NCBI RefSeq assembly: GCF_037975245.1
Contig: NC_092568.1
Span: 33,388,501-33,452,500 of the forward strand
Direction of reading: 5' to 3'
DNA length: 64,000 nt
Origin: Apostichopus japonicus
Taxonomy: Eukaryota; Echinodermata; Holothuroidea; Aspidochirotida; Stichopodidae
This document shows, one piece after another, positions 3,079 through 64,000 of the stretch (positions are counted from its first letter, which is position 1; each line of letters opens with the position of its first letter). The notes beneath the pieces are model-generated. The model ran no database searches and had not been told where the DNA came from. It saw nothing but the letters and a program-made list of their open reading frames with translations. The position numbers were made by a program, and so were the translations under genes.

Positions 3079-3850
3079 CATGGGCGGCGATCCGTACTTC
3101 CGAGTGGGGGGGATATGACCTTGTTGACTATCTAAGCGTAGCGCCACCATGAGTTGGCGCAAAGCGTACACGAAAATTTGGGGATTTACAAACCCTCTAG
3201 ATGGCCGGAAACGGCACTTCCCAAGGTTTCCAAGCGGCATATACCCAACTTTAAAATAGGGATATCATGTCCGAAACATCTCATAATCAGGATCCAAAAT
3301 ACTTTTTTTTAATTTCGGGTGTTATTTTGGGAAAATTGCCCCTGTCAATCTTGTTTCAGGCACTACGTTAGAATGTTCGAGAGCTCTTTTATATTATTCG
3401 ATGAAGAAAATGGCCTCATACAGGCTATTATAGGCCTATACACATGCAATACACAATTACACATAGTTACATTCCTAGGTACCGATTGCTAGGGCATCCA
3501 GGTGAAACGTGTATTAAGCATTACCCTGGTAACATGAGATTCTCAGCTGTTCGAGGGAACATGTACGTGTGTAGGCCTACTATAGGGCCTATATACTATG
3601 AGGGTGCATATATGTACTATATCAATACCGTGATAAAGATAAAGACGGTTTATTTGAAAAGATCGCACTGCGTGTATGGTAGGCGAGAAATGAAGCTAAA
3701 AAAGAGCCGTACATTCACGATGATACATAAATGTAGGCATGAAAATATTCTTATCCCTGGCATTTGGTGGGGGGATATGGTGTATTACATCCCCTCCACC
3801 CATTTTCATGGGGGGATATATCCCCCCCCCCCCCAGGATCGCCGCCCATG
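3079..3850. mobile_element. Nested hAT-like MITE with GC-rich core
   Basis: Terminal inverted repeats CATGGGCGGCGATCC and GGATCGCCGCCCATG are exact complements. They are flanked by a perfect 8-bp duplication CATACATT (3071-3078 and 3851-3858). Just inside the left end, near 3128-3175, lies the GC-rich core found in six other elements of this window: 'ctaagcgtagcgccaccat' followed by 'gttggcgcaaagcgtac'. No transposase is encoded. Open frames crossing the element (for example 3444-3932) are fortuitous. Confidence 0.85.
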
Positions 3851-3860
3851 CATACATTTA

Positions 3861-4369
3861 CATAGCTCCCAACTCTTGAGAAGGCAAATGCTGGTCCATG
3901 CCACGAATCGCCGTCCTGGGGGAGGGGTATAAGGGGAGGGGGTTCCCCCTCCCCTTTTGATTTTTTTTGGAATCCTGGTGATGCCTACATGTAAAATGGT
4001 GGCACTTAGAAAGGCTTTTGTCACCCAAAATTTTCTGACAAATATGCATTTTTTTTGTGTAACATCAATAAATTGAATAGTAGGTGATAATTCATTCTTT
4101 CTCGTGGCATGAAAATGTTCGCTGCTCGCCACAATGAAAAGAAATATAGGCTAATTTGAGGTTCAAATGATGCTGTAAGGAGGTTTTATACTCTATTATG
4201 CTAAATGCTAAAGAAATGATGGTTGCTAAGTCAAAAATTGATGCAAATTTTTTTATGTATACTTGACAATTACAATGCGGTTTTTTTCGGACGCTTGTGC
4301 GGGTCAGCGGGTTTGGGTGTTAGAATGCGGGTCTAATTCCCGCGAATTGCGGGTCAGTTGGGAGCTCTG
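3861..4369. mobile_element. Nested short TIR element with AGCTCCCAACT ends
   Basis: The left end CATAGCTCCCAACT and right end AGTTGGGAGCTCTG are inverted with one mismatch. Both are flanked by CATTTA (3855-3860 and 4370-4375). The visible duplication is 6 bp; an eroded 8-bp hAT duplication is possible. The left flank overlaps the target duplication of the element at 3079-3850, so that element went in beside this one afterwards. The interior carries the motif 'ggggagggggttccccctcc', also seen in the flanking host and near 20700. Confidence 0.7.
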
Positions 4370-4543
4370 CATTTAATTTTAAACCAGAAAACGAGAAGGT
4401 TTAGACTAGTCTACCACTGCTATTCCTCTCGATTTTTTTAATTTCCAATCATATGATTTAGCGGATGTTCGGAAACACTTTTTGGCTCACCTTTGGGGGG
4501 GGGGGGGGCCATGGCCCCCCTTGGATCCGCCAGTGTATGTACT

Positions 4544-6118
4544 GTATTAACACAGACAAATAAAGTGGTGAAACATTGCAATATTATTTTTTACTTTCTT
4601 TATTATACACTCTTCCTTCATCACAATTGTTGTACATTTTTGTTATTTTCTTTTAAATGCATCTCACTTTGCTACAGATTTACAAGATGAAGTCATTGTC
4701 TGCATGTCCATAATGAAAAACTTCAGACACCATTGGTTTGCATAAGTACGGGCCATCCATTTTGCCCCTAAATATATTAAAAAGACAAGAATGGTCACTT
4801 ATTACTGTAACTTCAACATCGGCTTCTACCAACTTTTTAGTGCTCTGACTCGCACCTTTCTGATACGACCTTCCCTTATTGGAGTCGCAAACCCAATTGA
4901 TCATCTACGGCCTATCTGATGGAAATCTTTGTCAAGAACTACTGTACTCTCCAGTACAGAGCCTAGGAAAAAGTATGCCACAGTAAGGAGATATGGTAGT
5001 ATAAAAAGTCGTGTCTGGGGGTTCTGGGGAATGACACTTTGTGACTGTGCGATGTTACAGTGCCACCCGGAGGTGACTTTCCCTAAAGTGTCTTTTCACA
5101 TGAATTGTAGACAGTATTGACACCAAAATCAACTGGAACTAGAAAGTTCAAAACAAAGATTTAGTATTTTCAAAACTTATAGATCTCTAGCAAAATGTTA
5201 AAAGGAACTTTAAAACTGTTCCAAACCATTACCGAAAAGTGTTCCCAAAGGAATACAATTGTTCTTAACTGTGTTGGGATGTTGTTAACCACAAGAACAC
5301 ATATTTACCATAGTATTGATGATGGTTGGTTTTCCTTCTCCTTTCATGATTTGAAAATATTTGGCCGGTGGAAACTTTTACATATCTTGAAAACGGGCTG
5401 AAAGTAGCATGTTAACATTGACAACCAAGACAGATGAAGTCTTGTCCAGCTAAGAGATGAAAGATTTTTGAAAATATTAAGGCTACTTTAATAATCATGC
5501 CCATTTGCTTAACTCTTTTCACCAGTTGTTCAGTTATTTAATATCTATTTCAATGTTTCCTTGGTACAATTGGTTGATAAAGCTACATAAGATATTTGCA
5601 TAATTCAACTTTCATATTCTTCAGTTCAAGATAATAAAGATCTACTGACTGTGATTAGATTTCACTACTATTGTTCACAAGTTTCAAGTTTGACCTGAAG
5701 TGCAGTACACCAGATGCAAAAGTTTGATTAAGTGTAATATCACAGAGTGCCAGAGACATTTTATGGCAATAGAAAATATCCAACCGACCAAGTTGACTAG
5801 AAGATGGATGAAAGAAATATGGCTATGTAGCGATATTCCACGCCCCTTCTACTCACCCCTTCCCTTCCTCCCCCCTCCCTCCAACCTCTTTTTTTTTACT
5901 AACAAAATTAATATGTTTTATAATGTATTTTCACACAACCATTTCATGTTACTGCCAACACTTTTTGCAACTCTTATTTCTGTTCAATGGAAGAATATTG
6001 CATTCATATTTAAGTTCCAGTCCAGACAACGTCCAAGATCATCGATGCTTCATCACACCCCTTCGTAAAAGTTCTGACACCATCTACACTTTTATCTTCA
6101 CAGCTTTGGACATCAAAA
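4544..6118. other. Intergenic region downstream of MRPL33
   Basis: No supported gene was found. The left part follows directly on the transposon end. The right part is the 3' flank, and probably the 3' UTR, of MRPL33, which is read leftward. A minus-strand open stretch at 4680-4904 has no splice sites, and I recognise no domain in it. Confidence 0.45.
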
Positions 6119-8101
6119 TCAACCTTTGAGGGATTTAATTTTCTTGATTTCTGTGAACAGAACATGTCTCCGTACTGTATGGGGGGAAGAAAGAGAGAGA
6201 GATTCCACATTTAAATACTGAAACCACAATAATCAGGATGAGCGGTGAATAAAACTGATTGTACCTTAAATGCAATTCCTGTTCTGTTAAGTAACAAGAT
6301 ACATGCAATGCAAATAACATTGTTGCAAACAACTTTTCCATCACTCATGACATCAGTTTTGTTTGAAGTATTGAGCCCTGACTGACTAAATGAAATTAAT
6401 ATTACAAAGATTATAAAGGAAAGTCTTACCTTTTCTGTCAAACAGTTTGACAGCTAACTTGTCTGCTAACCTTGGTCTCTTCAGAACTTTGGAGATGCCA
6501 GTGCCAGCAGAGCTTGACACTAAAACCAATACATCTCTGAAATGAGAATGATGATATCAGTTATGAACTGTATAGCAATATTCTCCAAAGAGTCCATCCA
6601 GTCTTTGAAAATGATTCATGAGAGTGTTTCTCATCAATAACAATTATTTGTTTTATTTTCCTTTTTGCAGAATAATGTCTTTAAACATGATGGAAAAGAT
6701 AAACTTTATTATCATTATTACTTTTTTTTTTTTTTTTGGGGGGGGGGGTTGCGACTGTTCCTTATGGAATAGGGAGTAATAATAATAATATAATGAATAT
6801 AGCGCCAAATACCAAAAGGCCTCTAGGCGCTTTATAAAACCTAAACAAATAAAAAGACAGAGAAATCAAAGGAATAAAATTTCTAGAAGTAGTTTTCGGT
6901 TGATCTGAGGACTCAAAATATAACAATCCTGAGGAGCCACCCAAATAACCCAAATTAATATCCAAATAGTATAGTACTAAATGAAAGTTATCAAAATCAT
7001 GGCATGCTTTTACTATCAAACTATCATACAACTGCAGCTGTACAAAATGCATAGTTATAGAACTTTGTCTTTTTCTCCACAACAAAGCTTCATTCTTGTA
7101 TTTAACAAAAGTAAGAAAATTAACAAGTAAATATGTAACACGATAAGTTTAAAATTAAAAACTGGGTGTAGAGTTTTGTGATAAGTGTGAAGGAAACTCA
7201 CCTGGACTTTGCATCTGTCAAGAATGAAACAGAATATAAAAAAAAATATCATAAAACTGAGGCGTAAACATTTCTAAACATACAGCACATTGCTGATGTG
7301 TTTTACCTACCATTGTAACAAGTACATAATTAAGAAAATAAAATGAGCAATATCAAATGGTTCCTTTGGTGCCTTGAAAGGAGTAAAAGCAAAGCAAGAT
7401 GGTAACTGTGATTTAGGGGTAACTCTTTGTAATATTTCATACATGTGAAATCTCAACCTGATTCAATGTGCCATAGGAAGGACAATGTCCTTTTAAATGA
7501 TAGCGGTAAAGTCGATCTCCCTGATTTTGCTCAGTGGTTCAAACATTAATTCTCTCCTTCAGTTATGTCATTTCATTGATGGTTTGACCAGACTCCGCCA
7601 GATATAGAAAGAATGATACTTGAAAAGGTCGGTAGTCAAACTACTCAAAGCAACAAAAAATTTCCCTAACTTAGCACATGCATTGAAGTTTACTGTATTA
7701 TTCAGCTAAATGGGTGGACTTATCCACGGAGGTGTATCAAAATATATAACTGATGGTTTTTTCGTTTCACTATTACAATTTCGTTTCCGTTAAGGCTTTG
7801 TGGATTAAAATTGCGATTGAAAGAATGGCTACAATTTGACTTACGTACACGGCAACTTTAGTGTCTACAGTATCAGTGCAGCTACATGTTTAACAGACTG
7901 AGTACGCGAATTCACCGTACATCACCATACTTGTTGACCATAACTTAGGCCTAACTGTTATGTTACTAACCATGTACTGTACGGAAAATGTTAGGCCGTC
8001 GCATCAGCCTCACTGTTATTTAGTGCTAAAGTAGAAGCTGAACGCCTGAACTGAAGGTATTATATGACAGAATACTCACATCTTAACAACGAAAGGAACA
8101 T
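6119..8101 (-). CDS. MRPL33: Mitochondrial ribosomal protein L33 (bL33m)
   Basis: The gene encodes a small basic protein of the large subunit of the mitochondrial ribosome. Coding exons on the minus strand are 8101-8080, 7214-7202, 6536-6430 and 6174-6119. All four junctions use GT-AG and the phases match, giving 198 nt, that is 65 residues plus TGA. Human MRPL33 is also 65 residues. Shared features are the MFLS start, the AKS segment, an (S)(S/E)AGTG motif near residues 21-25, a K/R-rich middle, and a VLF.E.KKI(K/R)SL C terminus. Exon 2 is a 13-nt microexon that supplies part of the AKSR segment. The start ATG lies in exon 1, 22 nt before its donor. No RING, zinc or membrane motif is seen, as expected. 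The gene is too short and too split to appear as one open frame. It diverges from GNPNAT1, which suggests a shared promoter. The assignment rests on remembered family sequence, but exon phase, length and motifs all agree. Confidence 0.93.
6775..6850 (-). repeat. 3' tail of a CR1/L2-like LINE or tail-sharing SINE
   Basis: On the minus strand the sequence ends with 'gcgctatattcattatatt' followed by ATT repeats, preceded by 'aaagcgcctagaggcc'. This is the usual 3' end of CR1/L2-type LINEs and the SINEs that use them. It lies in intron 2 of MRPL33. No coding part is recognisable upstream. A homopolymer T/G run at 6722-6749 lies beside it. Confidence 0.45.
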
Positions 8102-8656
8102 ACTATAGGAAGTTACTCTTTTCCCTTGTCCGAGTGAAAGTTTGTGTCGCAGCGGTACTTTTCTTGCTCTTATTTATTGTATGCAATGAGAAAGTTCAAT
8201 TTCTGGATTCCAATTTTTCCTCACATAGTACATGTGACCATTATACCTTATAGTTTCCGGCTATAATACCTGGAGAAATGTCTAAGCGGTCACCGTGTGA
8301 AATGAAGTAGTCATGGTTAAAACCAACAATCATAGGTAAATGCACAATTTGTGTCTGTACAAGTGCCTCTATTAAAACATAGAACGTCAGCGTTAACCCT
8401 GACTTTGTTCACCAAGTACTTTACAAACGCATGCCACGTCCTTGTTCAATTCTTGCGCAACTAACCGGTGCTGCTAAGCAGTTTGGTATTTATACGCTCA
8501 ACGTTAGCAACTCGGGCCACTGCTTCACTCAGGTCGAACTTTCTATCACAGTTGTGATTTGAGATTATGAAATAGGCCTAGCCCTGTAATAAAGACATTT
8601 CCCGTTCGTTGGTTCCTGAAACATTATTTCAAGATATCATCAGAAGAGAGACAGCA
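8102..8656. promoter_or_regulatory. Divergent promoter region between MRPL33 and GNPNAT1
   Basis: The 555 bp between the two start codons must hold the 5' UTRs and transcription starts of both genes, unless distant leader exons exist. It is richer in CG dinucleotides than the introns around it and contains no obvious TATA box next to either start. No transcription-factor site can be assigned with confidence. Shared control of the two genes is an inference from the head-to-head layout. Confidence 0.45.
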
Positions 8657-11600
8657 ATGTCGGTTGAGGTACGCAGACGTGTAGGATATGCCTAGTATGA
8701 CTGAGTATGATTATGATTATGAAAGATGTAGGCTAGGGGATTTGATATGCTCAATGGTATTATTGTTACTGCCAGTGCTACTGCTAGTATTCAGTTGGGT
8801 CATACAGTAGCCTATATTCATCACAGAACTTTCAAATTCATTTCTATGAATATTTTTGTTGTCGGTACAACTATAGAGTGCAGGGTTACTTGAGATATAT
8901 CCTCCTTCCTAGTATTCCTGGTTGTACAGATGGCTAGTTGACTCTTTTCCCACTACGCATATCCACTTTACAATATTAGCCTTGGATTTTTTTGAAATAT
9001 ATAAACATGTAAATTGTAAATGAACAACAAATTATAACAGCACAAAGTTGGGTCGATCTCAAATTAATGTCATTGACTTAGATTTACCCAATCAGTATAT
9101 GAACAACTTCTCATCCACTTCAAAAGTTTAGCCTTGGACTCAAATTTTAGACATAACCCTTTTTTCCCTGTTTCAACACCATTTACATTACTGCAAAATT
9201 GATTTTTCAAAAGTTCAGTTTACAATACAACATGATCTTAGTCACCAGTGAAGTGAAAGTAAACTTCATTTTTGCCATGAGACTAACTTACTTAAATTTA
9301 TTTCTCTAGAATGGAGATGAGCTGGAACTGGAGCTGTTTGATTCCAAGCTTTTGCAGGAAATTGATTTTGCTAAATCCCCTGTTTCTTTCCCAAATGGAA
9401 TATCAATCACAAACCCTGGTGAATCACTGGTTATGAGGTCACTTAAGATAAGTGACTTTGATAAAGGTAAGTTTGGCTGATACCTTGAAGTCAAGATCCC
9501 ATTATAACGTTAAGAACAGAAAGGTCACAACCATTTGGCATGCCACAGTAGCTTGGTGTGTGTTTATAGAGATAAAAAACAATGAAGGAATGTAACTTAC
9601 TGTAGCTTTACTTGTAAGAGATTACTTCATGCACAAATATAATTTAATATGTAGAAACTATCGAAAACAAACTCTCCAAATAATGTTGCAAAATGTGTTG
9701 CATCACTAATAAGTCCCTTTGAAATTACTGAAAGTTCTACCAATTCCTTTGACTGAGTTTTAAATTTGAAAGAATGTACATGCTCAAATGCTATCTGGTT
9801 CTCTTCTCGAAAAGAAATTAAAATTGTAAAAAATTTAATAATTCAGTGTTGTATATCTAGATCTTCTTTCATCCCAACCTGTCTTCTTTTTATAAACTGA
9901 GTTTATTTATTTTTCTCCTTTCTTAATTTTTCTTTCACTTTTGGACAGGTTATATTCAACTCTTAAGCCAGTTGACAGACACCAGCAATACAACCAAGGA
10001 GATGTTTCTAGGTGAGACTTAATGTTGTATTTCCTCTATGGCTACTTGCTGTAATAAAGGTTCGTAACCTTTTGTAATGTATACCAAATTTAGTCCTAAA
10101 GGTCTTTCCATCATACTGGACTATGGCATCTCCAAACTATGGTTTTTCTCAAAATCAGTCTTAATGATACAATTTGAAGAATTTAAGATAAATTTGAGAG
10201 AAAATTGGCTTTTGAATGCGGCCCAAGTTACAGTAATATTTAGCAGTAGGAACATGGTTGTGATTATGAAACTTGGTAGGTGAGATCTGAAGTAGGCCTA
10301 CTATGAAAGCAAAGTGAATCCATTTCCTGAGTTTTCCTTACAACCCCTACATTATGAGCATAGTATATGGTGTTGTGTCAGTTTGCAGTTTATTGATTAT
10401 CTATGATAAATATGATATAAACTCTGCACTATATATTTTGTTTCCATTATAGTTTATACAAAGATGTCTAATGCCACAGAAAATTACAAATTTGATTCCA
10501 AATGATATCCTTTTCTTTCCATTTTTCCCTGACAGAAAGGTTTCATGCGATGAAAAATTGCAAAGATACTTACTATGCTACAGTCATTGAAGATACCTCA
10601 ACTAATCAAATTATTGCCGGAGCCACTCTAGAAATTGAACAAAAGTTTATCCGCCAATGTGCAATAGTAAGTATGTATGTATATGTGATCTTCCCGCAAG
10701 CAGGAACTCGCGAAAGAAGCCATGGAGGCTTATAGACTCGCAAGCTGACCGAAGCCAATCTCTCGGCACACATCCATTTAACGTCCATGTCGGGAAGTTG
10801 TTATTGAACAACACCCTTGCCAGACGACACACCTTGCTGTCGGCGGGGAATCGAACCGGCAGGGAATCGAATCGAGTCCTCAATAAGTTCTGCCTGATAT
10901 GTGTTGGCTCATTGTGTTAACTTGTATGTAAAGAAATATGTTTTGGAGTGGTGTGTGGGTGCACACACCACTCCAAAACATGAGAGGGGGGGGTAGGGAG
11001 GGATTCAAATACCTATGAATTAAATACACATTATGTAGAATGATGTCAATGGAACTGGTCTCTCTACTAGCAATTGAACAGCAACTCAGATCAATAGCTA
11101 CAGTTGAAATCCAGTTCTGGCTCAAATCAACAAAAGTTTGTTGTCATTTTGTTCTACTGACATATGAAGTCTGTCTTCGATGGTGATATTCTAATCAGTG
11201 CTTTCTCAGTTGATCTGACCAATTGTATATGTTGATAGATGTAAGTGCAACACAATATATCTGCTGCACTGTGACTGGGAGTGAAGGGGGAGGAGGGCAG
11301 GGGGAAACAGGGAGACTTACTCTACCTCAGAAATTAATTCTTCTTTGATTTGAAAACTTCACAAATGTTTATTTCTTGGAGAGAAGACTCAGTGTATTAT
11401 TGATAAGTATTTATTTATACTAATCCACAACAGAAAATGGATTGGGATATTCTAAACAAACTTGAAAGGTATTTCTTTTGTTATATTTCACTTTTTCTTT
11501 TGTTTCTTCTCTTCAGAGAGGAAGAATAGAAGAGGTTGTCGTCCTGGAGGAATATCGAGGAAAACAACTTGGGAAATTGTAAGCATAAACTTAAGTGTCT

Positions 11601-19076: not shown

Positions 19077-19078
19077 CT

Positions 19079-20618: not shown

Positions 20619-21057
20619 ATAGGCAGTGGCGGATCCAGGATTTCGCCGAAGGGGGGGCCCAGATGGGAAATGCCTAATCGTCGTCCTGGGGAAGGGGTCT
20701 AAGGGGAGTGGGTGCCCCCTCCCCTTTGGGAAAATTTCACAAAATATGGAGGTCCTCGGTGCAATCTGGTGCTACTTTTCGTGAAAGTTTGGAGTAAAAT
20801 TTATTTCCAATAAATCATGTATTCATGGTTTGCCGGGCATATATTTGCAATTTCGAGCAATGAGCTGGGATTTACGTCTTTGGGGAGTAGGTGGTGATGA
20901 AAACTACTTTTTACCAGGCTACTCCAGGCCATTTCATCTTGGATGCCCCCTTCCAGATGGAGACTATTGATGCAGTCAGAGTGCCCCTCTCACCTTCACT
21001 TTATCAGAATGATGGTGTACTCTTTTTGCAAATTTATTTTACAAAAAATTACACGCA

Positions 21058-22398
21058 CAGTGGCGTAGCTAGGATTTTTTGAGTGGGGGGGGGCATGGGG
21101 GGCTGTTCTTTCTTGTGGGGGGGGGCGGAGTTTACTATCTAAGCGGAGCGCCACCTTGGTTGGCGCGGAGCGTACAGAGAAAATTTGAGATTTCAGCACC
21201 CCCCAGATCGCAGGAGATGGCACCTGTGAGGCAAAATAGCAACCAAAATGATGTGCAACTTTGGTGACAGAAATGCAAAAAAAGTTTTTTCTCTTTCATG
21301 CTGACTGGCCTTGCCAACTCAGCCAGACTTTAAACTTGAGGGAAGTTGGCATCATTTGTCGTTTCAAGCTGTCAAGGCCTTTCTCCCAACTCAAACCCCT
21401 GTGGGCTACCGGTAGATTTGCAGGATATGCCCACATGTGGACTTAAATAGCATTAGAGGAAGGGGGTGGAAGACTAACACGCATCGATGTTTCGGTAATG
21501 GTCCACATTGATGGCTCGGTGCTTATTAGGCCATTTATTGGGTTTCTTGAGGCAGCTGTCATCAGAATCTGGCTTTTTGTGCCAATCGATGACCGATAAC
21601 ATGTATTGGTATGTAAATTTCTTCTTCATATATCTAGCAACACTCTAAAAACAAATGAGTGGATTTCATTCCATTGGAGTGATCACTCGGCGCACTTCAA
21701 ATTAAGAGTAAAATTTAACTCTATTGGAGTTAACCCTCACTCCTAATATGAGTGAATATAACTCTATTAGGAGTTAAGATTTACTCCAATGGAGTGGAAA
21801 TTCACTCTTATACCGGAATGTGCTCAGTTGACACTCCCATGGAGTGTAATTCACCTATGTTTTTATCAGTACAGTACAGTGCATATCATCATAGACGTAC
21901 GTACTTACGTACTACGTACGTTCGTATATCAGACGCACTCGATACCCACGATACGATACGGTCCTGGAGAAACTATTTCCACTCATCATTTTTTAAGGCG
22001 ATACAGTAGTGAGTATTGAACAGGCACAGCCGCATGTTTGCAGGAAATTCAGAATTCCCAATATTTTATATCTCTACCAGTAGTGAAAATCATGTTTCGA
22101 CAGTTTCGTGGACATAAAAAGTTGTTTTGTGGAATATTCAATGACATATCAGGGGCGGATGCAGGATTTGTGACAGGGGGGGGGGGGGGTCTGACTGGTC
22201 CAGCCGCGCCTGAACGTAAGACTATCTAAGCGGAGCGCCATCATCGGTTGGCGCGGAGCGTACAAGAAAATTTTTGGCTTTACAAACCCCCCAGATGGCC
22301 GGAAACGGCACTTCCCGAGTATTCTAAGCAGCATGTACCTAGCCTGAAAATATGGATCTCATGTCTGCAATTTCAGGCCCCCCGTAGCTACGCCACTG
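21058..22398. mobile_element. hAT-like MITE with CAGTGGCGTAGCTA ends
   Basis: The ends CAGTGGCGTAGCTA and TAGCTACGCCACTG are exact inverted repeats. The flanks are TACACGCA (21050-21057) and ATCACGCA (22399-22406), six of eight bases alike. This is consistent with an old 8-bp duplication. The GC-rich core (ctaagcggagcgccacc, then ggttggcgcggagcgtac) occurs near 21138-21185 and again near 22226-22265. Confidence 0.6.
21643..21852. repeat. Serial ACTCC/GGAGT palindromes
   Basis: At least five short palindromes built from ACTC..GAGT halves follow one another, for example AACTCTATTGGAGTT, TTACTCCAATGGAGT and ACTCCCATGGAGT. Spacings are about 25-40 bp. The block lies inside the transposon cluster and looks like a repeat array whose unit is itself palindromic. 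Confidence 0.6.
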
Positions 22399-23013
22399 AT
22401 CACGCATGGGGCACTTTCCCTCGAACGCGGAAAAAACAATCAAAAAAAAAAAAAATCAGGATTTTCAAAAAGGGTGGGCCCGGGCCCCCCGGCCCCCCCC
22501 TGGATCCGCCCCTGATAGGTATCGTGAATAATCTAAAGGTTTCCACAATTAATTAAGACATTTTGAATAATCTAAAATGTCTTCACTTTATGCATATATT
22601 AATTTGATTAAACAAAATCAATATAAACGAAATAGGCTAGAGATGTATGTTGAACTGTAAACGTTTGAATTATTGTTGCTGTACAGTCGGTACAGTCGAC
22701 CAACGATAAATGATAACTTTAGTCTGCAGTTACAAGTATCAACTGTTTTAATAAATTATATAGGCGAGTTGCCGTGGTCGCGCTATACAAGTACCCTTTC
22801 AATACAAATGTCGGCTAAAAATGGCAACCAGGTAAAATTTGTAAACACATCATTATCGATAATAAGAGCTCGATGGTACGTGAACCATCACCCCCTCCCC
22901 ATTCAAAACGATAGCCGCCAATGCAGTACATTTCTACACTGATTGCTATTGACATTTTCAGATTTTGGTACAATTTGAGCAACCATCCGATGGTTACATA
23001 AGTGGATAAGTCG

Positions 23014-24882
23014 CATATGGGCGCAGACCCTGGTGGGGACAGCGGGATGCGTCCCCACCAACTTTTTCAGTGGTGGGACATGATACCGTGTTCCCACCAA
23101 TTTGTCTTGACCAAACGCTGCATTTCAAATTCCCCTGTATTGAACTTTGGCGCAGTTTGATCCAGCATTGTGCAAATGATATGCTATAAAAGACGAGAAT
23201 TATTACTATTGGCACTGTTAGGCATGGGCGTCAACAGGTGGGGGACGGGGGGGACATGTCCCCCCCACTTTCAAAAGTGGAGGGGATATCATATCATTTG
23301 TCCCACCCACTTTTCAGAGCAGTTATTAAAAAAAATCACATGCATATGCGCGATTTTCTATTTAAGGTCAAGAAATCTGGACTCCCTGGGCCCCTGCTAT
23401 CTATCACTTGCACCGTCATTTATCTCCCATTCTCCCAATATCCTAAATCTGCCCATTTAATTCGTTCGGGGGGTATTGTGTATTGAATCTTGCACACATG
23501 TTGTTTGTATGGGTTCCAAGGGATTAGGTAAGCCATACAGGTAGATGGTGATGAGTTACTATGTTCATATCACTACCTCCAGTCCCTTGGACTGGACGGA
23601 CGAATAGGGGTACATGTATTCGCCGGATATGGTAGATCTTTATTGTTGAGTGCCGGCTAGGCGCTACACACGCTCTGCGCGGTGCCTTTTTCTGATTATT
23701 ATTAAAGTACCTGGGCACATAACAACTGACGTCTCGCACCTACATGCATGTATTATATATACCACTCCACTCATCCCGGAGGTGACGGCGCCACTTTTTC
23801 AATATTTCGTTTGAGATGGACGCTGTGTAATTCGTCTCCCTTGGTGTCAGAACGGCATCTTTCTACCAGTACTTTCTGTCGGAATTTAGTTTTGTGAGAC
23901 AAAATTTCTCCTCACAGATCTGGTTCTGATGTAACTAAAAACGACTCAGGAAGGCCGTCTCCTGCGATCTAGGGGGTCTTATGTATCCAAAATTTTCTCG
24001 TACGCTACGCGCCAACCAATGGTGGCGCTCCGCTTAGATAGTATAGTGTCCCCCTCACTTTCTGAAACCTGCTGACGCCCATGCTGTTAGGCGTGACTTC
24101 TCCGCTGAAGATTAACACATTCAATCATGTGAAACATGTTAATCTATACACGAGACTGGTAAATTGTGGTCAGCAAAACGGACTGAGTGAGAACAAAACA
24201 ATCGTTAACAACTCACACTGTGTGTTGCCAATTTGAGCTAGCTTCACGTCCTGCGGTGTTTACACTTTCAGTTGAATTTCGGGAAATATTTTGAGAAGAT
24301 AACATTTTGGAAGGAAAGTATTTGGATGTATCTAATTATATGTCTCTGAAGTAAGAATAAACTGGGCCTTACAACCTGCTACACTAGAGTACCCTTTTCA
24401 TCGTACTGTGAGACGTATGAGCTTTCTAAAATGAATATACGACTTACGAGCATGCAGGAGCAACATTTATATACATCGATGTAACTTAAATTATCACTAG
24501 TTCTCATATTATTATATTTATCCACAGTTGTTAAATATAGGACGGAAATCGCATTTGCGGCAGTCTATATATAATTGTTTTCTCTGAGAGGACCCCATAC
24601 CCATCGTATACAAAAGTATACTTGGAATTTTTGTCCCATGATTTTTTTCTGCAGACGCCCATTTAGTACCCCAAACTAAATTCCTAAGCCATGAGATCTA
24701 AAACTTAAGGAGGTATGGGAGCATCATTGGGTCTGGGAAATGTTGTCTCCGGCGATCTGGGAGGAGTATTTGCCAAAAATTTCTTGTACGCTACGCGCGA
24801 AGCCATGGTCGCGCTCCGCTTAGATAGTATCAGAGAACAGACACGCGTCCCCACCATTATCCAAGACTGATCTGCGCCAATG
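23014..24882. mobile_element. hAT-like element, host of a nested MITE
   Basis: The left end starts CATATGGGCGCAGACC and the right end finishes GATCTGCGCCAATG. Both are flanked by ATAAGTCG (23006-23013) and ATAAGCCG (24883-24890), seven of eight bases alike. The GC-rich core is present on the minus strand near 24780-24835. The element at 23223-24083 is inserted in it. No transposase is visible. Confidence 0.7.
23223..24083. mobile_element. Nested hAT-like MITE with CATGGGCGTCAACAGG ends
   Basis: The ends CATGGGCGTCAACAGG and CCTGCTGACGCCCATG are inverted with one mismatch. They are flanked by a perfect 8-bp duplication CTGTTAGG (23215-23222, 24084-24091). The GC-rich core is present on the minus strand near 23995-24050. 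The intact duplication suggests a younger insertion than its host. Confidence 0.85.
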
Positions 24883-24891
24883 ATAAGCCGT

Positions 24892-28395: not shown

Positions 28396-28399
28396 CTTG

Positions 28400-28715: not shown

Positions 28716-28729
28716 GTAAAAACTTGTTT

Positions 28730-29853: not shown

Positions 29854-29861
29854 AAAGTCCT

Positions 29862-30211
29862 CATAGGCGTAGGAGACTGGGGGGGGGGGGCTGCAGCCCC
29901 CCAACCAATTTTTGTGTGAAATTTCGGGCAACATGCTGAGATTTTTTGGGCACCCACGGAAACAACAATAATTTGCAATGTGTTTTTCAATGCTTATATT
30001 ATTATGATCATTGCAACGACTCCCCCAATAATTATAACCAATATGAAAGGGTAATAACACGAAAAATGATGGTATGTTATGGCATGTGATGTAATAACCG
30101 ATGAATGCCTAGATATGATATGCACATTAACAGCACCCAAAAAGATGTGGTTATATTTTTCGGGCAAGTTGTTACAGCCCCCCCAAATCAAATTAGGCTC
30201 CTACGCCTATG
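29862..30211. mobile_element. 350-bp hAT-like MITE
   Basis: The ends CATAGGCGTAGGAG and CTCCTACGCCTATG are exact inverted repeats. They are flanked by AAAGTCCT (29854-29861) and AATGTCCT (30212-30219), seven of eight bases alike. G and C runs lie just inside the ends, as in the other elements of the window. It does not show the GC-rich core. Confidence 0.85.
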
Positions 30212-31845: not shown

Positions 31846-32116
31846 CAGGCGCATAGCCAAGGGGGCCAAAAGGGACACGGCCCCCCCTTGAGCATATTTT
31901 TTTTACTTTTTTTTTTTTGATATTGCTAGTAATTTCAAAGTAAAAAAAAGTTACATGCAACTTACAAGGCCTGGGTAGTGCCATTTCCAGCGATCTGGGA
32001 GGCATTTTCGGCCAAAATTTTCTTGTACGCTTTGCGCCAACTCATGCTGGTGCTACGCTTATATAGTTTGCCTACAGGTTCGCCCCTCCCTTGGCAAATT
32101 CCTCGCTACGCGCCTG
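31846..32116. mobile_element. 271-bp hAT-like MITE with GC-rich core
   Basis: The left end CAGGCGCATAGCCAAGG and right end GCTACGCGCCTG are inverted. They are flanked by a perfect 8-bp duplication GTACTAGT (31838-31845, 32117-32124). The shared core lies on the minus strand near 32020-32065. It is the shortest complete core-bearing element in the window. Confidence 0.85.
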
Positions 32117-32609: not shown

Positions 32610-33370
32610 ATTTGAGTTGAAAAATCCAGAACAGTGAAAAAAAACTTCCAGCCTCCACTGGGATTCGAACCCAGGCCTCCAGCTCTATATGCAAACACCC
32701 TAACCACTAGGCTATGGATGCTGATTGTACAGTATGTCCAGAGGTTCGAAACCGGTAAGGAAGGTCATAATTCCACTGTAGGCTTTGTCGCCTTTATCGA
32801 ACAATACTAGTTCTGTTTTGGTGAAATATTTGCCTTACTCTAGAGATCAAACATGATTCTAACCAACTCGAAGTCATTTGTGATTCCTAAAGCCGGATCT
32901 CGAAAGAGATACTTTGAACAGACTTTTGTTAAAGAAATGGAGGTATACCACGAAGGCAAATTATTATATAAATTTGAAATCATAACAAGTTGGAATCTCC
33001 AGGACAGTGAAAAAACGGCTAGCCTCCACCGGGATTCGAACCCGGGCCTCCTGCTTTATATGTGGACACACTAACCACTAGGCTATGGACGCTGATGGTA
33101 TGTCCAGAGGTTCGAAACCGGTAAGGAAGGTCGCAATTCCACTGTAGGCGTTTGTCACCTGTATCTAACAATACTAGTTCTGTTTTGGTGACATATTTGC
33201 CTTACTCTAGAGATCAAACATGATGCTAACCAACTCGAAATCATTTGTGACTGATATATATCATTGAAGTCCTAATGAGTTGGGAAATCAAGAACAGTGA
33301 AAAAACTTTCAGCCTCCACCGGGATTCGAACCAGGGCCTCCTGCTTTATATGCGGACACCCTAACCATCT

Positions 33371-56904: not shown

Positions 56905-58610
56905 AAAGGTACCACAATTACTCCTCTTGCCTGGTCCCTTTGTATTTTTTGCAGTACTCTGGCAATTAGGCTAAAGGGGGGAAAAGCATAAAAGATGTAC
57001 TTATGCCAATTAAAAGAGAATGCATCAATGAATAAGGCATCTGGGTCTGGTCGCCATGAAACAAAGGGAGCGAGTTGTTTATTTGTACGAGATGCAAATA
57101 AATCAATATCAAAGTTCCCCCACAGGGAAGAAATTGCATGAAATATTTCTGGATTTAGCATCCATTCTGTGTTACTCTTAAATGTACGGGACAGCATGTC
57201 AGCATGGACATTAAGCTTGCCCGGCAAGTAACAACAAGACAACCACACTTTGTTTGATGCAGACCATTCCCATATAGCTTTTGCTATTTTGTTACATTGT
57301 GACGAATGAGTACCTCCCATAGCCTTAATGTATGCAACAGCTGTCGAGCTGTCAGATAAAATTCTTATATGCGTATGATCGCCCTTTAAGCATAACGTTT
57401 TTAGAGCAAAATAGATAGCAAGGAGTTCAAGCACATTTATGTGATATGTTTTCTCAACGGTATTCCACTTTCCTTGTGACCGTGTAGAGAGGGTCGGGCA
57501 AAAAGCACCCCATCCTACCAGAGAAGCATCAGTTTCTAGTACGATATCTGGGTTAGGCTCTAAGATATGCATGCATGCAAGCGGAAGGGACTCTAACCAC
57601 CATTTCAGCTCTGTATAGTCCCCCTGAGCCAATTCTATTTCTGTATCAAAATTTCCCTTGTATTTTTTCAACAGAGAAATCTTAAGTTTTTCCATATCCC
57701 TGTAATGAAGGGGTCCATATTTAACTCCTGGGAACAGCGAGACAAGGATACCAATGATATGTGCCAAGTCCCTGATAGTCTTTTTGTGTTTGCCCTTAAA
57801 TTTTTGTATCTCATTTAAGGCAGATTCTATCCTTTTGGGTTTTGGCCGAACAGTCATATGTTGGGAATCAAGCACAAATCCAAGGAAAGATAGCTTAGTA
57901 CTTGGTTCTAGTACTGATTTTTCGGGATGAATGATGAAGCCTAATTTCTGAAAAAATTGTACAGCCGTATGCACTGCAGAAACACATGCACTTTTGGTAT
58001 TAGCCTGGATATAAATATCATCAATGTAGCTCAGGCAAGAAATACCCAATTTCCTGAGCTCAGCCAGAATAGGTTTGAGTAGTTTAGTAAAAATGCGAGG
58101 TGCTGAGGCCAACCCATTTGGTAGGCAAGTATACTGATAAAGTTTGTCTTTGAACGCAAGCCTCAAAAATTTTCGACTTGAAGAACTAATAGGTACTGAA
58201 TAATAGGCGTCTTTCAGGTCAATTGAAGCCATGAAACACTGCGGCTCTACTAGCCGTAATGCAGCCTGCAAAGTATCCATTTTAAAATGGTAATATTTGA
58301 CACTTTCATTTAGGTTCTTTAAATTCAATATCATTCTGAAAGAACCATCTGGCTTAGGCCTGAGAAACACTGATGAAATAAATTCCCCTTGGGAATGGGA
58401 CGTTTCCTCCAAAACATTCTTTTCCCAAAGTTTAGATATTTCATTATCTAAAAGAAGCTCTTCGGTTGAATTAGAGCATATATATTTTGTTTTGGATCTA
58501 CTATACTGAATTGGCTTTTCTTCATCAAATTCGATGTCATAGCCATGAACACAACTTAGTATAACCGAGTCAGCTGTGATTTCTTGCCAGTGCTGTAGAA
58601 AATGTTTCAA
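56592..58610 (-). CDS. DIRS element reverse transcriptase/RNase H ORF
   Basis: The frame is 672 codons. The polymerase part shows the YIDD box, followed by an RNase H part (ETDAS, HINVLELLA, LSDSS) and a C-terminal domain that in DIRS elements resembles a DNA N6-adenine methyltransferase fold. The order and sizes fit the family. The frame looks uninterrupted. Confidence 0.9.
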   Translation of the reverse strand: MKHFLQHWQEITADSVILSCVHGYDIEFDEEKPIQYSRSKTKYICSNSTEELLLDNEISKLWEKNVLEETSHSQGEFISSVFLRPKPDGSFRMILNLKNLNESVKYYHFKMDTLQAALRLVEPQCFMASIDLKDAYYSVPISSSSRKFLRLAFKDKLYQYTCLPNGLASAPRIFTKLLKPILAELRKLGISCLSYIDDIYIQANTKSACVSAVHTAVQFFQKLGFIIHPEKSVLEPSTKLSFLGFVLDSQHMTVRPKPKRIESALNEIQKFKGKHKKTIRDLAHIIGILVSLFPGVKYGPLHYRDMEKLKISLLKKYKGNFDTEIELAQGDYTELKWWLESLPLACMHILEPNPDIVLETDASLVGWGAFCPTLSTRSQGKWNTVEKTYHINVLELLAIYFALKTLCLKGDHTHIRILSDSSTAVAYIKAMGGTHSSQCNKIAKAIWEWSASNKVWLSCCYLPGKLNVHADMLSRTFKSNTEWMLNPEIFHAISSLWGNFDIDLFASRTNKQLAPFVSWRPDPDALFIDAFSFNWHKYIFYAFPPFSLIARVLQKIQRDQARGVIVVPLWPTQNWYTKLLHMTIAIPRYLPLGKEVLLLSEDRSKLHPLHHNLQLVACLVSGNASETLTFQKKLPESSWHPGGYPLKNSTALIKIGGLSSVQGNKLIHFIPL

Positions 58611-58693
58611 ACGGCCGCCAATGGGTAATTGCTTTGTTTTACAAGGCTGTAAAGAATGTACCGTAACAGAATTGACACATACCTTACCTCTTG

Positions 58694-59803
58694 TTAATTC
58701 CTCGTGCTTTTCTGAGGATTTCTCGGCAGTTGATTTGTGTACTGCCTGTGACGTTGGCCTAAAAAAGGCTGGTAGCGTCTGTTGCCTCCTCTGTATGGGC
58801 CACGATAATTGATTTTACCTCTAAAACCTCCACCTCTAGCTCTCCCCCTAGTGGGAGTTAAGCAACACTTGCTCATTTTATTTGCATCGGTTATGTCACG
58901 CACTTGCTGCGATATGTCATCCCCAAATAACAGAGTAGACATAGGCACTGAGTTTGAACAAAGATTTTTATACTCTGCCTTAAGTTCCGGCTTGAAAAGA
59001 TCACGCCGAAAATGGTTCAAGTCTATGTTAGATGAACCAAGAAAGGCCAAGGCATCTGTCAACTTCAACAGGACATTCTCCTTATCCTGATCAGCCTTGC
59101 CAGTCAATACATCATTAATTAGATAAGTCAGAGCAATCATAGCCTTAACGTTCCCTGACTGTATCTTTTGTAATCTCAAATCTTTGGTTCTAGCTTGCAG
59201 CTGAATATTGTCCCAGATCAATTTGTTGACCTGAGATGTCTGCAATAGTTCCATATTGCTTGGATGTTGATATTTTTCCATCTTTTCTTTCAGTTTTTGT
59301 GGTGCCAATTTTTTGGAACAAATATTTTTGACCAAATTTGCAACCTTTTCTAGTACCGCAGTACCGACTTTATTGCCCAAATCAAGGCTAGAAACAATGT
59401 TACTAAAAGCAGTTTGTTCCTCCGTAGGGATTTTTACAGTTTGCTTTTCAAGTTCTGAAGAACTTTCAAGAAGAGAGATGAGATCATCATTCTCATTAGC
59501 AGTATCATCTGGTGAGTTCAATAAGTCTAGAAGCTCATCATCATAGTCCAAAGATATCCCCTCCTGATTGTGAGGGGGAAGAGAACAAGCCTCAGAAAGA
59601 GGTCGATTTTCAGCAGAGGTTGCTACCTCATTTTTAGCTTTCTCTTCATTGCCAGGAATAACTTTCTGGCACAACAATTTAATCTGTGCCTGCATTTGAG
59701 CAAGCATATCTTTTACATCGCTTTGGGCGATTTGTGTACCAGAACTTCCTTCTCCCGAAGGCGAAGGTAAGTCAGGTCCTGCCTGGAACTCTAAGTCCAT
59801 CAC
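58694..59803 (-). CDS. DIRS element gag-like ORF
   Basis: The frame is 369 codons and is the first ORF of the element. It is acidic in the middle and ends in an R/G-rich tail that could bind RNA. I see no zinc knuckle. Position and composition fit a DIRS gag-like protein. Confidence 0.75.
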   Translation of the reverse strand: MMDLEFQAGPDLPSPSGEGSSGTQIAQSDVKDMLAQMQAQIKLLCQKVIPGNEEKAKNEVATSAENRPLSEACSLPPHNQEGISLDYDDELLDLLNSPDDTANENDDLISLLESSSELEKQTVKIPTEEQTAFSNIVSSLDLGNKVGTAVLEKVANLVKNICSKKLAPQKLKEKMEKYQHPSNMELLQTSQVNKLIWDNIQLQARTKDLRLQKIQSGNVKAMIALTYLINDVLTGKADQDKENVLLKLTDALAFLGSSNIDLNHFRRDLFKPELKAEYKNLCSNSVPMSTLLFGDDISQQVRDITDANKMSKCCLTPTRGRARGGGFRGKINYRGPYRGGNRRYQPFLGQRHRQYTNQLPRNPQKSTRN

Positions 59804-60172
59804 AGTAAAAAATTAAACCCCGAAGCAAAATGCCAATTGGGTAGTTATAACGTAATTAGCAATTACTGCTAATATTAAGTTAAGCAGAACGCAGATAGAC
59901 AGCAAAATACTGCTACTGCAAAGCTTAAACAAGTTAAAGCATAAAGCCAGCAAAATACTGCTCATGCAACATGTGTGCCGCCTGTAAATGTAACGTATGC
60001 CTACAACAATAATGTAGGTTCTAAAGGCTAGTATTATTATTAAGCCATGTATCGTACAGCAACTCTCAAGTGCTCGCAACAACACCAGAACAAACCAACT
60101 TACGTGCTAGAGGCTTCGTTTGCAAGTGACAAGAAATTGAAATGACTCGACAGCATTGTTTAAATGCTGTGC

Positions 60173-60174
<2 letters not shown>

Positions 60175-60244
<70 letters not shown>
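60175..60244. repeat. 70-nt T homopolymer
   Basis: An unbroken run of 70 T on the plus strand, that is 70 A in the sense of the DIRS-type element. It lies between the terminal repeat and the first ORF. Assembly length may be inexact. Confidence 0.95.
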
Positions 60245-60246
<2 letters not shown>

Positions 60247-60502
60247 GTAATTGAACACAAGCTTGTTAAAGAGCAAGACAAAAGGTGGCAGGCACAACAC
60301 TATCTGAAGCACATAGTTCAAGCGCGACGGTTTTGTTAACAAAACCCTCAACGTTAAACCATGCAAAGGAGAGAGAGCCGCAAAATACGTCTACTCTCTC
60401 CAAATCCAATCACACACTGAAGCTAATCCTCAATTATACAATCTCAAGTAGTTCCGTAGTGAAGTGTAATGGGGAAGTAGAATTCAGTTATTTATCACAT
60501 GT

Positions 60503-60523
60503 ACGGTACGGTACGGTACGGTA
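60503..60523. repeat. GGTAC short tandem repeat
   Basis: Four tandem copies of the pentamer GGTAC in the right part of the hAT-like host element. Confidence 0.85.
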
Positions 60524-60726
60524 CTACTATATGGCAACATATGCGTATGGAACGCGAAAAGAGTTTGTCGATTTTGTACATTACTTAATTATATGATATA
60601 TCAGATTTTAGTTCAACAAAAAGTACTCTAGTTTTTACTTTCAGAAACGTCTCACGATCCCCTGGGATGGGCTCACGCACCCCCTGGGGGCTCATACACC
60701 CCAGTTAGGGAACCCCTGCTGTATAG

Positions 60727-62587
60727 GGTCAATCCCAACTACCGATTTCTACATCTGACGCAAAGTTTAGAGTGCTACAAATTTGTTAGACGTTTTCAAA
60801 GAGATTTTCATTAGATTACAACATCCTCTATATTATTTCCAGACATATTGGACTTCCATTAGAATTTACCGAAGTGTGTCAGTAAGGTAAAATGCATTGA
60901 AGACAGCAGGAAATGTTCGTTAAAAACCTTTATCGCAGTGACCATTATTTTGACTTTCTAGCATATATTTCGGGGCAATACTGAAAGTTAAGTTCTGCTA
61001 AACTTGTGTCGACAAGTTGTCTCCGTGAAAAATATTGCTTTTGTTATTTTTGTTTTGTTTTCTTAAAAGTTTATTGACGTTTGGTGTAGTATAGACCGGT
61101 GGCCAAAATTATATAAATAGTCTATATTTCACATCGATTAATCTTTATTAAAACATCAATAACGGGTTTTCTCATCATTAAAAGTCACCAGCAGCACAAA
61201 CAAAGTTGGCTTACATTCAGTCACGTAGGCAAAGATCGAAATTTTTTAAGAGGTTTCAAAATCTTTAAAAAAACGGAAGGAGATATATTCCTTTTTTTCT
61301 GTGAAACATATCCTGACCCGTTCACCCCACCCTACCCACCCCACCCCCCATAAAAAAAAACCAGGAGGAATTGGTTAACTTGCAAAGTAATTAAAGGTAG
61401 AATGCAGAATGTGCGAAGAAAACTCACAGCCTTTAAATTTAATCTAAAGCATGTTACTACAAACCTCTCTGCTTTCGATTAGAACATTCTGATATCTTAA
61501 AAGTCTGCCCGGAAAGGGTCATTTCAGGCGAATTGACGAATTCTATGACGTTAACTACATATATATGATAAAGGTGAAAATTCATTGAATATTTCTGATT
61601 ATTCAATGCTTCAATACGAGTCCAAAGAACAAGATATTCAATCACGTTATTTTATTTTCCAATCAATCAATCTTGAATGTAGATCATAATATTAATTTGA
61701 TTAGCTGCTATAATGAAATTGACAAATTTTTAGTCATCACCCATGCAGGAAAAATGTCACGATTTAAGTACAGACATTGACTTGTATGAGTGAGAGTAAA
61801 GAACATAGCTTTAGCATTATGAGACAACCATACTACAAAACTGAAGTTTGAAACGGTTTCTGAACTGTTGCTGTCATTCCGTCGGAAATGAAAAGAAAAT
61901 AAATTGCTGGTCTTCCCCTGCTGGGGGTGGGGGGGGGGGCGATCATCGTCAGTCAATGGAAATGGTTCATTCATTTTGTTACATTCAGCCGGGGAAGAAT
62001 GAAACCATTGCTATATAGAGGTGAACATCCCCTATTCAGCAGCACACTACAATCGTTAGTATTTATTGGCACAGCCTTGCGTTTAGAGCGAATTTTAGAT
62101 ATAATGTATAGTCTACGTGTGCCTCCGAATATACCATTTGACATTTAAATTTGTCATTTTTCTTGCGGAGTCGGACTACAAACACGTCTCCCTACATGGA
62201 AGTCGGCATCAAAGACCCCAGGACCACATCCATTCATTTATGAAATCCTTCATTCGCCTCGTGCCCTTCGATAAAAGGTTAGCTCCGATACCTAAATCAG
62301 TCGGTGGAGGTGGGGTGGGGGTTGGGTGGGGATTATAATTTTACCCCCCACCCCGTTCATCTTTGACATCCATTCCACTCTACTGGGTCATCTCTCTGTC
62401 TCATCGTGTATAATAATGCACACGTATATACTACTAGGCTGGCGTTACAAAATCAAAGCATAAAAACGGCTTGTGGCAAGTCCGTATTCCTATATTATTA
62501 CAATCCCATCTCCGATCAGGATCTTTACTTTCATCGATTTTGTTTAAGGTTGCATTGAACAAACAGGATATATATTCGAAATGCGTG
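60727..62587. other. Intergenic, no gene recognised
   Basis: AT-rich. A block near 62190-62260 (gaccccaggac, tttatgaaatccttcattc) resembles 14930-15010 and so belongs to a dispersed repeat. A plus-strand trace of the 30-bp satellite wording occurs near 61150. No splice-supported ORF. Confidence 0.4.
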
Positions 62588-62845
62588 CTAGTGTTTACCC
62601 GCTAGAATGTTAATATTTACTAATAGACTAAGAATAAGTTGACCACAAATTTGCTTAAAACAATCAAGCCTGACATCCCTGGTCACACATCGCTGTATAC
62701 AACAACCTACTTTAATATTCTCAACACCAATCATCACTACGGCTTGAATAATTCGTTGAAGCTCAAAGCAGAACACCCCTGCTGCACTCGCCTGTAGACT
62801 GATACAGGTCTCGGAAAGCAACCACTGGTTGGTCTCATAAGCAAT
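62588..62845 (-). CDS. Candidate coding exon, unknown product
   Basis: Read leftward, a strong polypyrimidine acceptor (tttatttttctacag) opens at 62845 onto 85 codons without a stop. The first 45 or so (IAYETNQWLLSETCISLQ, then FELQRIIQAVVMIGVENIK) look protein-like and amphipathic. A GTAGGT donor-like site follows ENIK, so this may be an internal exon of 135 nt or a terminal exon ending at 62588. I do not recognise the family, and no partner exon was found in the window. The rest of the gene could lie to the right. Confidence 0.3.
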   Translation of the reverse strand: MAYETNQWLLSETCISLQASAAGVFCFELQRIIQAVVMIGVENIKVGCCIQRCVTRDVRLDCFKQICGQLILSLLVNINILAGKH

Positions 62846-63206
62846 CTGTAGAAAAATAAAAATCGGTATTAATCAAAATTGACACTGACCCCCCCCCCCA
62901 ACCCCTAACCCTCCTCCTTCCTCTGGTATAGGGATGATGCCTTTTTCGTCAATTTTCTTTTCATTTTTACACGTTCAGTCTCCCTGAATTTTGCGACTTC
63001 GCAATGCCTATGGGAACATTGAAGGAAAGAACTATACCAGGGTCGTCGCTAATATTCGACGACTGGGGAAGAGGAGGAGGGGGATGGAGGGGGCTGTTGA
63101 CATTCGACAAAAAGCTCTGGTTTTGTTCCGACAATAAGTCTTCAGTTTCCCGTAAACCATGTACTCCTAGCTCAAGCGCCATGGTTCTGACACTATACAT
63201 TTTGCA

Positions 63207-63769
63207 AAAGATGAACAATCACGGGAACCATTTTTACTCTCATATTCCATAGAATTTGAAAGGGAATGAAAATTTTGAAATAAAATATCGAAATTTTGAG
63301 ATTTAAAGGTAACATTTCGAAACTATAAATGTCGAAAGTTGGGATAGTTCGAAATATAAAACTCAAACTTGAGACATGTAAAACGTTGCCATCTCGACCA
63401 GTGTGGTCGAGTGTGACGAAAACTTGCCGCGGAAGTGGCAAGTAGAAACCGCTCATTATCTGAGATAGCAGAAATAATGTTATATAATGTAATCGCACGG
63501 TACTACTTCATCCTCGAAATCAAACTGAACGAAAATAATTCTACCTGACAGCCTGGGGGATTATGAGAATGTAAAAGTTCCCAAATTCCCCATCCCAATC
63601 CCCACCCCAAACCCCAAAATAAAACCAAGCATGATTTCCCTGATAAACCTCCAAACTTTCAGGCGATAGTCGCTTTGGCCCGGCGGAAAATATTTCTGGG
63701 TGACACTTCCCGCTATGCAAAAAATGAACAATCACGGGAACCATTTTTACTCTCATATTCCATAGAATG
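63207..63769. repeat. Pair of about 50-bp direct repeats
   Basis: The phrase 'gaacaatcacgggaaccatt' with 'tttactctcatattccatag' occurs near 63210-63254 and again near 63725-63769, about 515 bp apart. Read on one strand it is identical over about 45 bp. The cause is unknown. Confidence 0.85.
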
Positions 63770-63889
63770 TACCCTTTGATCGGTAAAATTAACACCCATA
63801 TAGGCTTTAAATTGCATCTAAACAATTAATGAACGTGTGTAAATTTAGGGAGGGCGGATAGAAGAACTTATATGGTGATGTACAACTGA

Positions 63890-64000
63890 AGCTTACACGT
63901 CACTATTTAGGCGGTGCACCACCATCAGTTGGAGCGGCGCGTCGAAATTTAAGCAAAAAGGAAATCCTAGATCAGCAAAAATGACACCTCTGGTAACAAT
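63890..64000. mobile_element. Core-bearing hAT-like MITE, cut by the window end
   Basis: The segment 'actatttaggcggtgcacca' followed by 'cagttggagcggcgcgtcg' is a diverged copy of the GC-rich core of the other elements. The 3' part is outside the window. The left end is not fixed. Confidence 0.5.

Follow-up and report, generated by a model that had tools for sequence, protein, structure and literature searches.

The 64-kb stretch of Apostichopus japonicus DNA analysed here (the window) contains seven copies of an oriented module of about 93 bp (ACTATCT...GGAAATGGCACTTCC), a sequence carried by hAT-type elements whose terminal repeats differ. The module has a direction, lies at one end of its elements only, is common to families with different terminal repeats and with two lengths of target-site duplication (TSD), and is constrained in its stem. 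The sequence-only reading had named a GC-rich quasi-palindromic core at seven places, and within the module this core is the half that varies least. A profile search of the window recovered all seven places, the first six at E 6.8e-30 to 5.8e-23. The core halves at up to three mismatches gave 5 and 6 matches, compared with 0.02 and 0.00 expected from shuffles. The seventh copy (63902-63990, E 3.7e-8) is diverged and passed neither half-motif search. Three of the seven copies lie on the minus strand, and the conserved unit is about 93 bp long rather than about 45 bp. The elements and module copies of the window are listed below, with F-numbers for left-flank classes.

3079-3850, + strand: hAT-type non-autonomous element of class F09, end type CATGGGCGGCGATCC, 772 bp, exact 8-bp TSD CATACATT
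3127-3220, + strand: module copy of the F09 element, 48 bp inside its left end
21058-22398, + strand: element of class F15, end type CAGTGGCGTAGCTAGG, TSD TACACGCA/ATCACGCA with two mismatches, nested in 20624-22514
21134-21225, + strand: module copy of the F15 element, profile match
22150-22314, + strand: F16 left end CAGGGGCGGATGCAGG with a module copy at 22221-22314, within the F15 element, no separate right end confirmed
23014-24882, - strand: element of class F08, ends CATATGGGCGCAGACC / CATTGGCGCAGATC, TSD ATAAGTCG/ATAAGCCG with one mismatch
24737-24828, - strand: module copy of the F08 element, stem with a C-G to G-C exchange
23223-24083, - strand: element of class F10, end type CATGGGCGTCA(A/G)CAGG, 861 bp, exact 8-bp TSD CTGTTAGG, nested in the F08 element
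23950-24042, - strand: module copy of the F10 element, profile match
31846-32116, - strand: element of class F01, end type CAGGCGC(A/G)TAGC, 271 bp, exact 8-bp TSD GTACTAGT
31975-32067, - strand: module copy of the F01 element, profile match
63902-63990, + strand: diverged module copy of class F06, terminal repeat not found, at the end of the window

Several of these elements had been credited with the same type of 8-bp duplication. This was found exactly in three elements and with one mismatch in a fourth; a fifth has two mismatches, the copy at 22221 has no confirmed right end and the copy at 63902 has no recognised end. F16 was considered as a family in its own right and rejected, as no right end of its own was confirmed. 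The F15 element, which holds the F16 left end and module, itself lies in a complete element at 20624-22514 with a 5-bp duplication (ATAGG) and the ends CAGTGGCGGATCCAGG/CAGGGGCGGATCCAGG. The element at 3079-3850 is inserted in a 1,791-bp hAT-type element at 2745-4535 with the 8-bp TSD TATGTACT, and a 350-bp element at 29862-30211 (ends CATAGGCGTAGGAG, 8-bp duplication with one mismatch) resembles class F04.

The genome of A. japonicus (671,581,487 bases in 35 contigs) contains 12,410 exact copies of the module 13-mer GCGGAGCGCCACC, 6,178 on the + strand and 6,232 on the - strand, and the reversed 13-mer used as a control did not occur. Another 4,428 copies deviate from the 13-mer solely at one variable base (T or A). 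At this base, module position 13, G, T, A and C were found in 12,410, 3,548, 880 and 74 copies, respectively, while two single transitions at neighbouring sites were present in just 63 and 93 copies. Base 13 is not a free N, because C stands there in only 74 of 16,912 copies, and the GNA mini-hairpin DNA motif was rejected on the same count.

Module copies were sampled from the first 100 listed places of the 13-mer, all on contig C1 (C-numbers denote contigs and L-numbers sampled genomic stretches or loci). The sample drew on 20 stretches measuring some 8-10 kb and a further 20 measuring 1.65 kb from there, together with stretches around hAT coding sequence. The sample comprised 67 module copies (66 and L063), which were sorted by left flank into 18 classes, F00 to F17. 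F14 proved to be F03 carrying a foreign insertion, F06 lacks a recognised end, and F11 resembles a diverged F03. An alignment of 30 copies from 16 classes gave a mean column identity of 85% and the layout ACTATCTAAGCGNAGCGCCACCAT.GGTTGGCGCGNAGCGTACAAGAAAATTTT, then a variable stretch, then CCCCCCAGATCGCCGGAAATGGCACTTCC. The quasi-palindrome is accompanied by two GCGNAGCG repeats. GCGNAGC within the module resembles the terminal repeats of a part of the classes only, namely F00 (CAGTGGCGGAGCTAGG), F01 (CAGGCGCGTAGCGAGG), F02 and F15. Modules in proximity were mostly co-oriented, with three in tandem at L042:239-775. Among the C1 matches listed, 8 of 9 adjacent pairs less than 1 kb apart had the same orientation, and several of these pairs are probably one composite that was copied. 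All 14 extra modules deeper inside 31 profile-scanned element rows were co-oriented with the first module, and one old insertion is common to several of these rows.

In 27 of the 67 copies, from 10 classes, both element ends could be assigned together with a target duplication. The module started 37-79 bp inside the near end, and the near end was on the ACTATCT side in 27 of 27. The first end search looked on this side only; a mirrored control search on the opposite side found a near end in 0 of 67 copies, and over 1.2 kb of sequence was searchable there in 41 of them. The suggestion that the core is a module amplified independently of a transposase thus found no support as regards an independent mobile unit. 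Short terminal inverted repeats of hAT type (CA...TG, up to three mismatches in 12 bp) were seen in the same 27 of 67 copies, in a search that itself required CA...TG, GGCG-like ends and some target duplication. The first 6.1 Mb of C1 hold 18 exact F00 left ends, and of the 15 looked at, 12 carried the exact 13-mer in the expected place, 2 the A variant there and 1 (L041) a mutated copy, so that F00 copies rarely lack the module.

The duplication was 8 bp long in 21 of the 27 two-ended elements (19 exact, 2 with one mismatch), which belong to F00, F01, F04, F05, F07, F09, F10 and F17. F12 (CATCCGAG/CATCCGTG) and F08 also had 8 bp with one mismatch. In F03 the duplication was 5 bp in four elements and 6 bp in a fifth, and a sixth (L022) matched at 4 of 5 bases. 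In F02 it was 5 bp in L033 and matched at 4 of 5 bases in L034, and none was seen in L038. The 8-bp duplication of the hAT superfamily was therefore found in most two-ended elements and not in F02 and F03; hAT5 is a hAT subgroup with 5-bp duplications. In total, 12 classes with target duplications carry the module, and F07 and F09 have one end type in common.

To the left of the module, homology between classes stops abruptly. For 106 class pairs across groups, identity in the 60 bp left of the module was 0.52, 0.53 and 0.52 (shuffled 0.50, 0.54 and 0.52), rose to 0.91 in the first 46 bp of the module and 0.76 in the remainder (shuffled 0.58 and 0.55), and fell to 0.58 and 0.57 in the 60 bp on the right (shuffled 0.55 and 0.57). 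In group 1 (F02, F05, F09, F13 and F16), identity was 0.51-0.54 in the left flank (shuffled 0.51-0.55), 0.96 and 0.88 in the module, 0.73 in the first 60 bp on the right (shuffled 0.58-0.61) and at shuffle level beyond. In group 2 (F03, F07 and F11), it was 0.65 in the last 20 bp before the module (shuffled 0.55) and 0.71-0.87 over 200 bp on the right. Among 162 BLAST matches over the module between class representatives, a count that omits the F15/F16 and F08/F10 pairs with window DNA shared through nesting, 138 began within 3 bp of the left edge and 24 further out. Their right ends lay 80-110 bp from the left edge in 121 cases, later in 22 and earlier in 19. From the identity blocks and the BLAST limits, the left edge is therefore sharp, and the right edge is sharp across groups and gradual inside a group. 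This agrees with the constant centre and changing ends described from the window, as identity between classes stays at shuffle level up to the left edge. Smooth divergence of ends and core together, the pattern of one ordinary family, was looked for and not found.

The end switching proposed for these elements has left a clear trace in F07. F03 (L013) has CAGGCGCGTATCCAGG ends and a 5-bp duplication, and F07 (L046) has CAGGGGCGGCGATC/CATGGGCGGCGATC ends and an 8-bp duplication. Their bodies share 84% identity across 583 bp that begin 7 bp outside the module (body z 14.1), while their ends show no match beyond general style (z 2.9 and 1.9). F07 and F09, in contrast, match at the ends (z 5.5 and 6.5) and not in the body (z 0.4). 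F07 thus combines an F03 body with F09-type ends, and this pattern is not that of one ordinary family of differing ages. Nested insertion fails to explain F07, because the homology between F03 and F07 ends before the terminal repeat of F03 itself. A weaker second case is F05/F09, with a similar body beside the module (z 8.0) and dissimilar ends (z 3.1 and 2.2). The left ends of F02 are F03-like (z 8.8), and its body has no clear assignment (z 0.6 to 3.1). Ends and body are uncoupled in these elements, and ends have been exchanged at least once.

Within classes, constraint lies mainly in the stem. In the six classes F00-F05, 13 of 637 cells (2.0%) at stem positions 27-35 and 37-40 departed from the class majority, compared with 17 of 195 (8.7%) at loop positions 23-26 and 5 of 49 (10.2%) at position 36. 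The right flank (94-190) diverged in 391 of 4,394 cells (8.9%; 5.7% in 94-125), and the left flank in 110 of 1,457 (7.5%). Divergence of the stem was about four times below that of the flank (Fisher p for stem versus right flank 1.4e-11, with cells taken as independent, which they are not fully). Because immobile copies should decay evenly, the stems were probably kept by selection on copies that moved. RNAalifold predicted eight core pairs; seven of them can form in every one of the 30 rows, and the remaining pair in 29. One two-sided exchange in helix 1, from C-G to G-C, occurred in 2 of 30 rows, both of class F08. This exchange would be equally expected from a symmetric protein site, so that either a hairpin or a dimer site would fit. 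Over permuted arms in 17 classes, Watson-Crick pairs gave p 0.009 for hairpin 2 (0.87 with G-T pairs and 0.26 with A-C pairs) and p 0.06 for hairpin 3 (0.35 with G-T and 0.001 with A-C). When columns were scanned for pairs showing three or more Watson-Crick types, only two pairs emerged, both joining unrelated columns.

The hAT dimerisation domain (Pfam PF05699) is common in this genome (150 of 633 candidates scored). It was found in elements of F05, F12 and F17, and DUF4371 was found in F05 and F17. A module lay downstream of 2 of 6 hAT frames sampled, a 796-aa frame at C17:7010094-7012481 with an F05 end and a 514-aa frame on C8 with an F17 end, whose products are 31% identical across 523 aa. 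L063 (F17, 231-aa frame) and L021 (F12) contain the C-terminal part of a transposase. In these four copies from three classes, the module is near the 3' end of the hAT transposase gene and antisense to it, beginning about 0.75-0.95 kb beyond the stop codon in F05 and F17. Transposase sequence was seen in F05, F12 and F17 and in none of the other classes. Eighteen other hAT loci (L049-L062, L064, L065, L067 and L068) showed no module at E<=1 in their short flanks. Four 804-aa hAT frames with equal scores (C1:1198075, C7:9747129, C7:9836554 and C7:9878765) look like a recently spread family, and the one looked at (L061) was without a module.

Several other identities of the module were considered and rejected. 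It is not the coding tail of a transposase, as the reading frame in L063 stops more than 900 bp before it. An independent gene with its own promoter was rejected because the TATA-like upstream flank in L044 is a separate repeat, which has inserted into an F03 copy some 3 bp from the outer edge of its module. This repeat (L044:1-238) has at least 40 copies among 42 matches listed, nearly full length and 94-100% identical, with an E-box and a TATA-like sequence near the edge on the module side. A spliced-leader or small nuclear RNA-like gene, suggested by AATTTTTGG and its resemblance to an Sm site, was rejected because this sequence is not conserved across families and no Rfam match was obtained. 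The Rfam covariance models gave no match up to E 10 for the copy tested (L033:180-420). A search at gathering level of the window, L042, L033, L044 and L047 returned only two transfer RNA (tRNA) genes, at window positions 32650-32721 and 33021-33092 (- strand).

We consider it somewhat probable that the module is a one-sided subterminal recognition site for hAT-type transposition, which would also enable the exchange of ends. A transposase or a partner may recognise the module at one end, as in Hermes, and the transposition complex would assemble on the module at that end only, with the quasi-palindrome and the two GCGNAGCG repeats as putative contact sites. In the classes where the gene was seen, the recognised end would be the end 3' of the transposase gene. 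As an island of near-identity in otherwise unrelated elements, the module may allow gap repair or recombination to switch template in or beside it. Such a switch would give an old body new ends, as in F07. Several results weigh against this recognition site. No accepted end pair was obtained for 40 of the 67 copies, and the source transposase for the 5-bp classes F02 and F03 was not found, transposases having been seen in F05, F12 and F17 only. The left end of the 796-aa element on C17 was not found in the stretch examined, and the element is therefore not called autonomous. Positions 41-93 of the module diverge by 4.4-6.1% within classes, barely under the nearest flank (5.7%). Picking copies by an exact 13-mer biases module positions 10-22 toward conservation, and these positions were excluded from the statements on rates. 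The window elements at 2745-4535, 20624-22514 and 29862-30211 have hAT-style ends and no module of their own, so the mobility of such elements does not need a module in general. A wider reading, which we hold tentatively and regard as doubtful, is that the module is a portable docking site common to several competing hAT-type transposases, including ones with different duplication lengths. Either a host factor or a conserved zinc finger would recognise it, and an element would exchange its ends, and hence its transposase, while keeping the site. If this were true, one set of ends could stand in for another, and an element would carry its heritable identity in the inner module.

The module may instead be a signal at the level of RNA or transcription (3' end formation, an antisense promoter or a structured RNA) of the transposase gene region, retained in short derivatives merely through its nearness to the end. 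The sequence-only reading had likewise named a replication or transcription signal as a candidate role of the core. Its antisense position beyond the stop codon in F05 and F17, the nearly invariant core pairs with one two-sided exchange and the modest excess of hairpin 2 over permuted arms are consistent with such a signal. However, the Rfam search of the copy tested was negative, hairpin 3 reached only p 0.06, the signal of hairpin 2 was lost with G-T pairs, and the gene-less copies of 271-380 bp would not need to retain it, which makes this explanation unlikely. We regard as still less likely that the module lacks a function of its own and owes its conservation chiefly to interfamily recombination, through conversion at a shared hotspot. 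The exchange of ends beside the module, the homology that extends to its right by varying lengths inside class groups, and the improvement of hairpin 3 by A-C pairs, which no same-strand hairpin model predicts, all point in this direction. The change inside the module is, however, uneven between stem, loop and base 36, and the counts at base 13 differ strongly from those of the neighbouring transitions; such unevenness is contrary to uniform homogenisation. Ordinary descent from one old hAT lineage, in which terminal repeats and transposases drifted together and the module simply changed most slowly, without exchange of ends, is very improbable as a general explanation. All ends are of one style (CA.GGGCG..., then often a G-run) and both long module-linked transposases are homologous, as such descent would predict, but F03 and F07 share a body and differ in both ends and in duplication length, and the ends of F07 match F09. 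Descent of this kind is already contradicted for F03, F07 and F09, and it could account for the remaining classes, given intermediates linking their ends.

A one-sided recognition site has a partial precedent in Hermes, a hAT transposon in which BED zinc fingers bind quasi-palindromic subterminal repeats at the left end and not at the other end, according to excerpts of PMC10368747. Both systems have 8-bp target sites and a subterminal site of quasi-palindromic form; in Hermes, zinc fingers make contact at one end only, and for the module it is the one-sided position that was seen. The Hermes site described in the same excerpts is short (bp 11-27), whereas the module is about 93 bp long, lies 37-79 bp inside and is common to families with different ends. 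Maize Ac/Ds, also hAT elements, have subterminal sites (AAACGG repeats) and heterogeneous non-autonomous forms (Ds1, Ds2 and Ds-l). As far as excerpts of PMC3260210 describe them, their 11-bp ends are constant and the interior varies, the reverse of the elements described here, which keep the inner module and vary at the ends. The highly conserved domains of short interspersed nuclear elements (SINEs), such as the V domain that also occurs in MER6, are likewise conserved blocks in elements with different flanks. In the excerpted text of PMC6887750, however, these domains are defined in SINEs, and MER6 derives from mariner and acquired a SINE, whereas the module occupies a constant position, in a constant orientation, at one end of many hAT-type families. 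For Galileo, excerpts of PMC4168063 propose, in general terms, template switching during gap repair as well as ectopic exchange, which can join parts from different copies. There they explain defective copies of a single transposon, whereas here an end pair with another duplication length replaced the ends of another family.

Among the matches listed, literature on hAT subterminal families, template switching, Apostichopus transposons and chimeric miniature inverted-repeat transposable elements held no description of the module; the element families may stand in Repbase or Dfam, which were outside this search. A literature text search with words of the module sequence matched only a Drosophila nucleolar stress paper. 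No recognition site for the DUF4371/hAT transposase group was described among the literature matches listed.

DNA transposon families are defined and classified by their ends, and the elements described here show that such a scheme can divide a single lineage and unite others. They offer a concrete, copy-rich case for studying how transposons come to use another transposase, and they point to a testable one-sided recognition site in the DUF4371/hAT transposase group.

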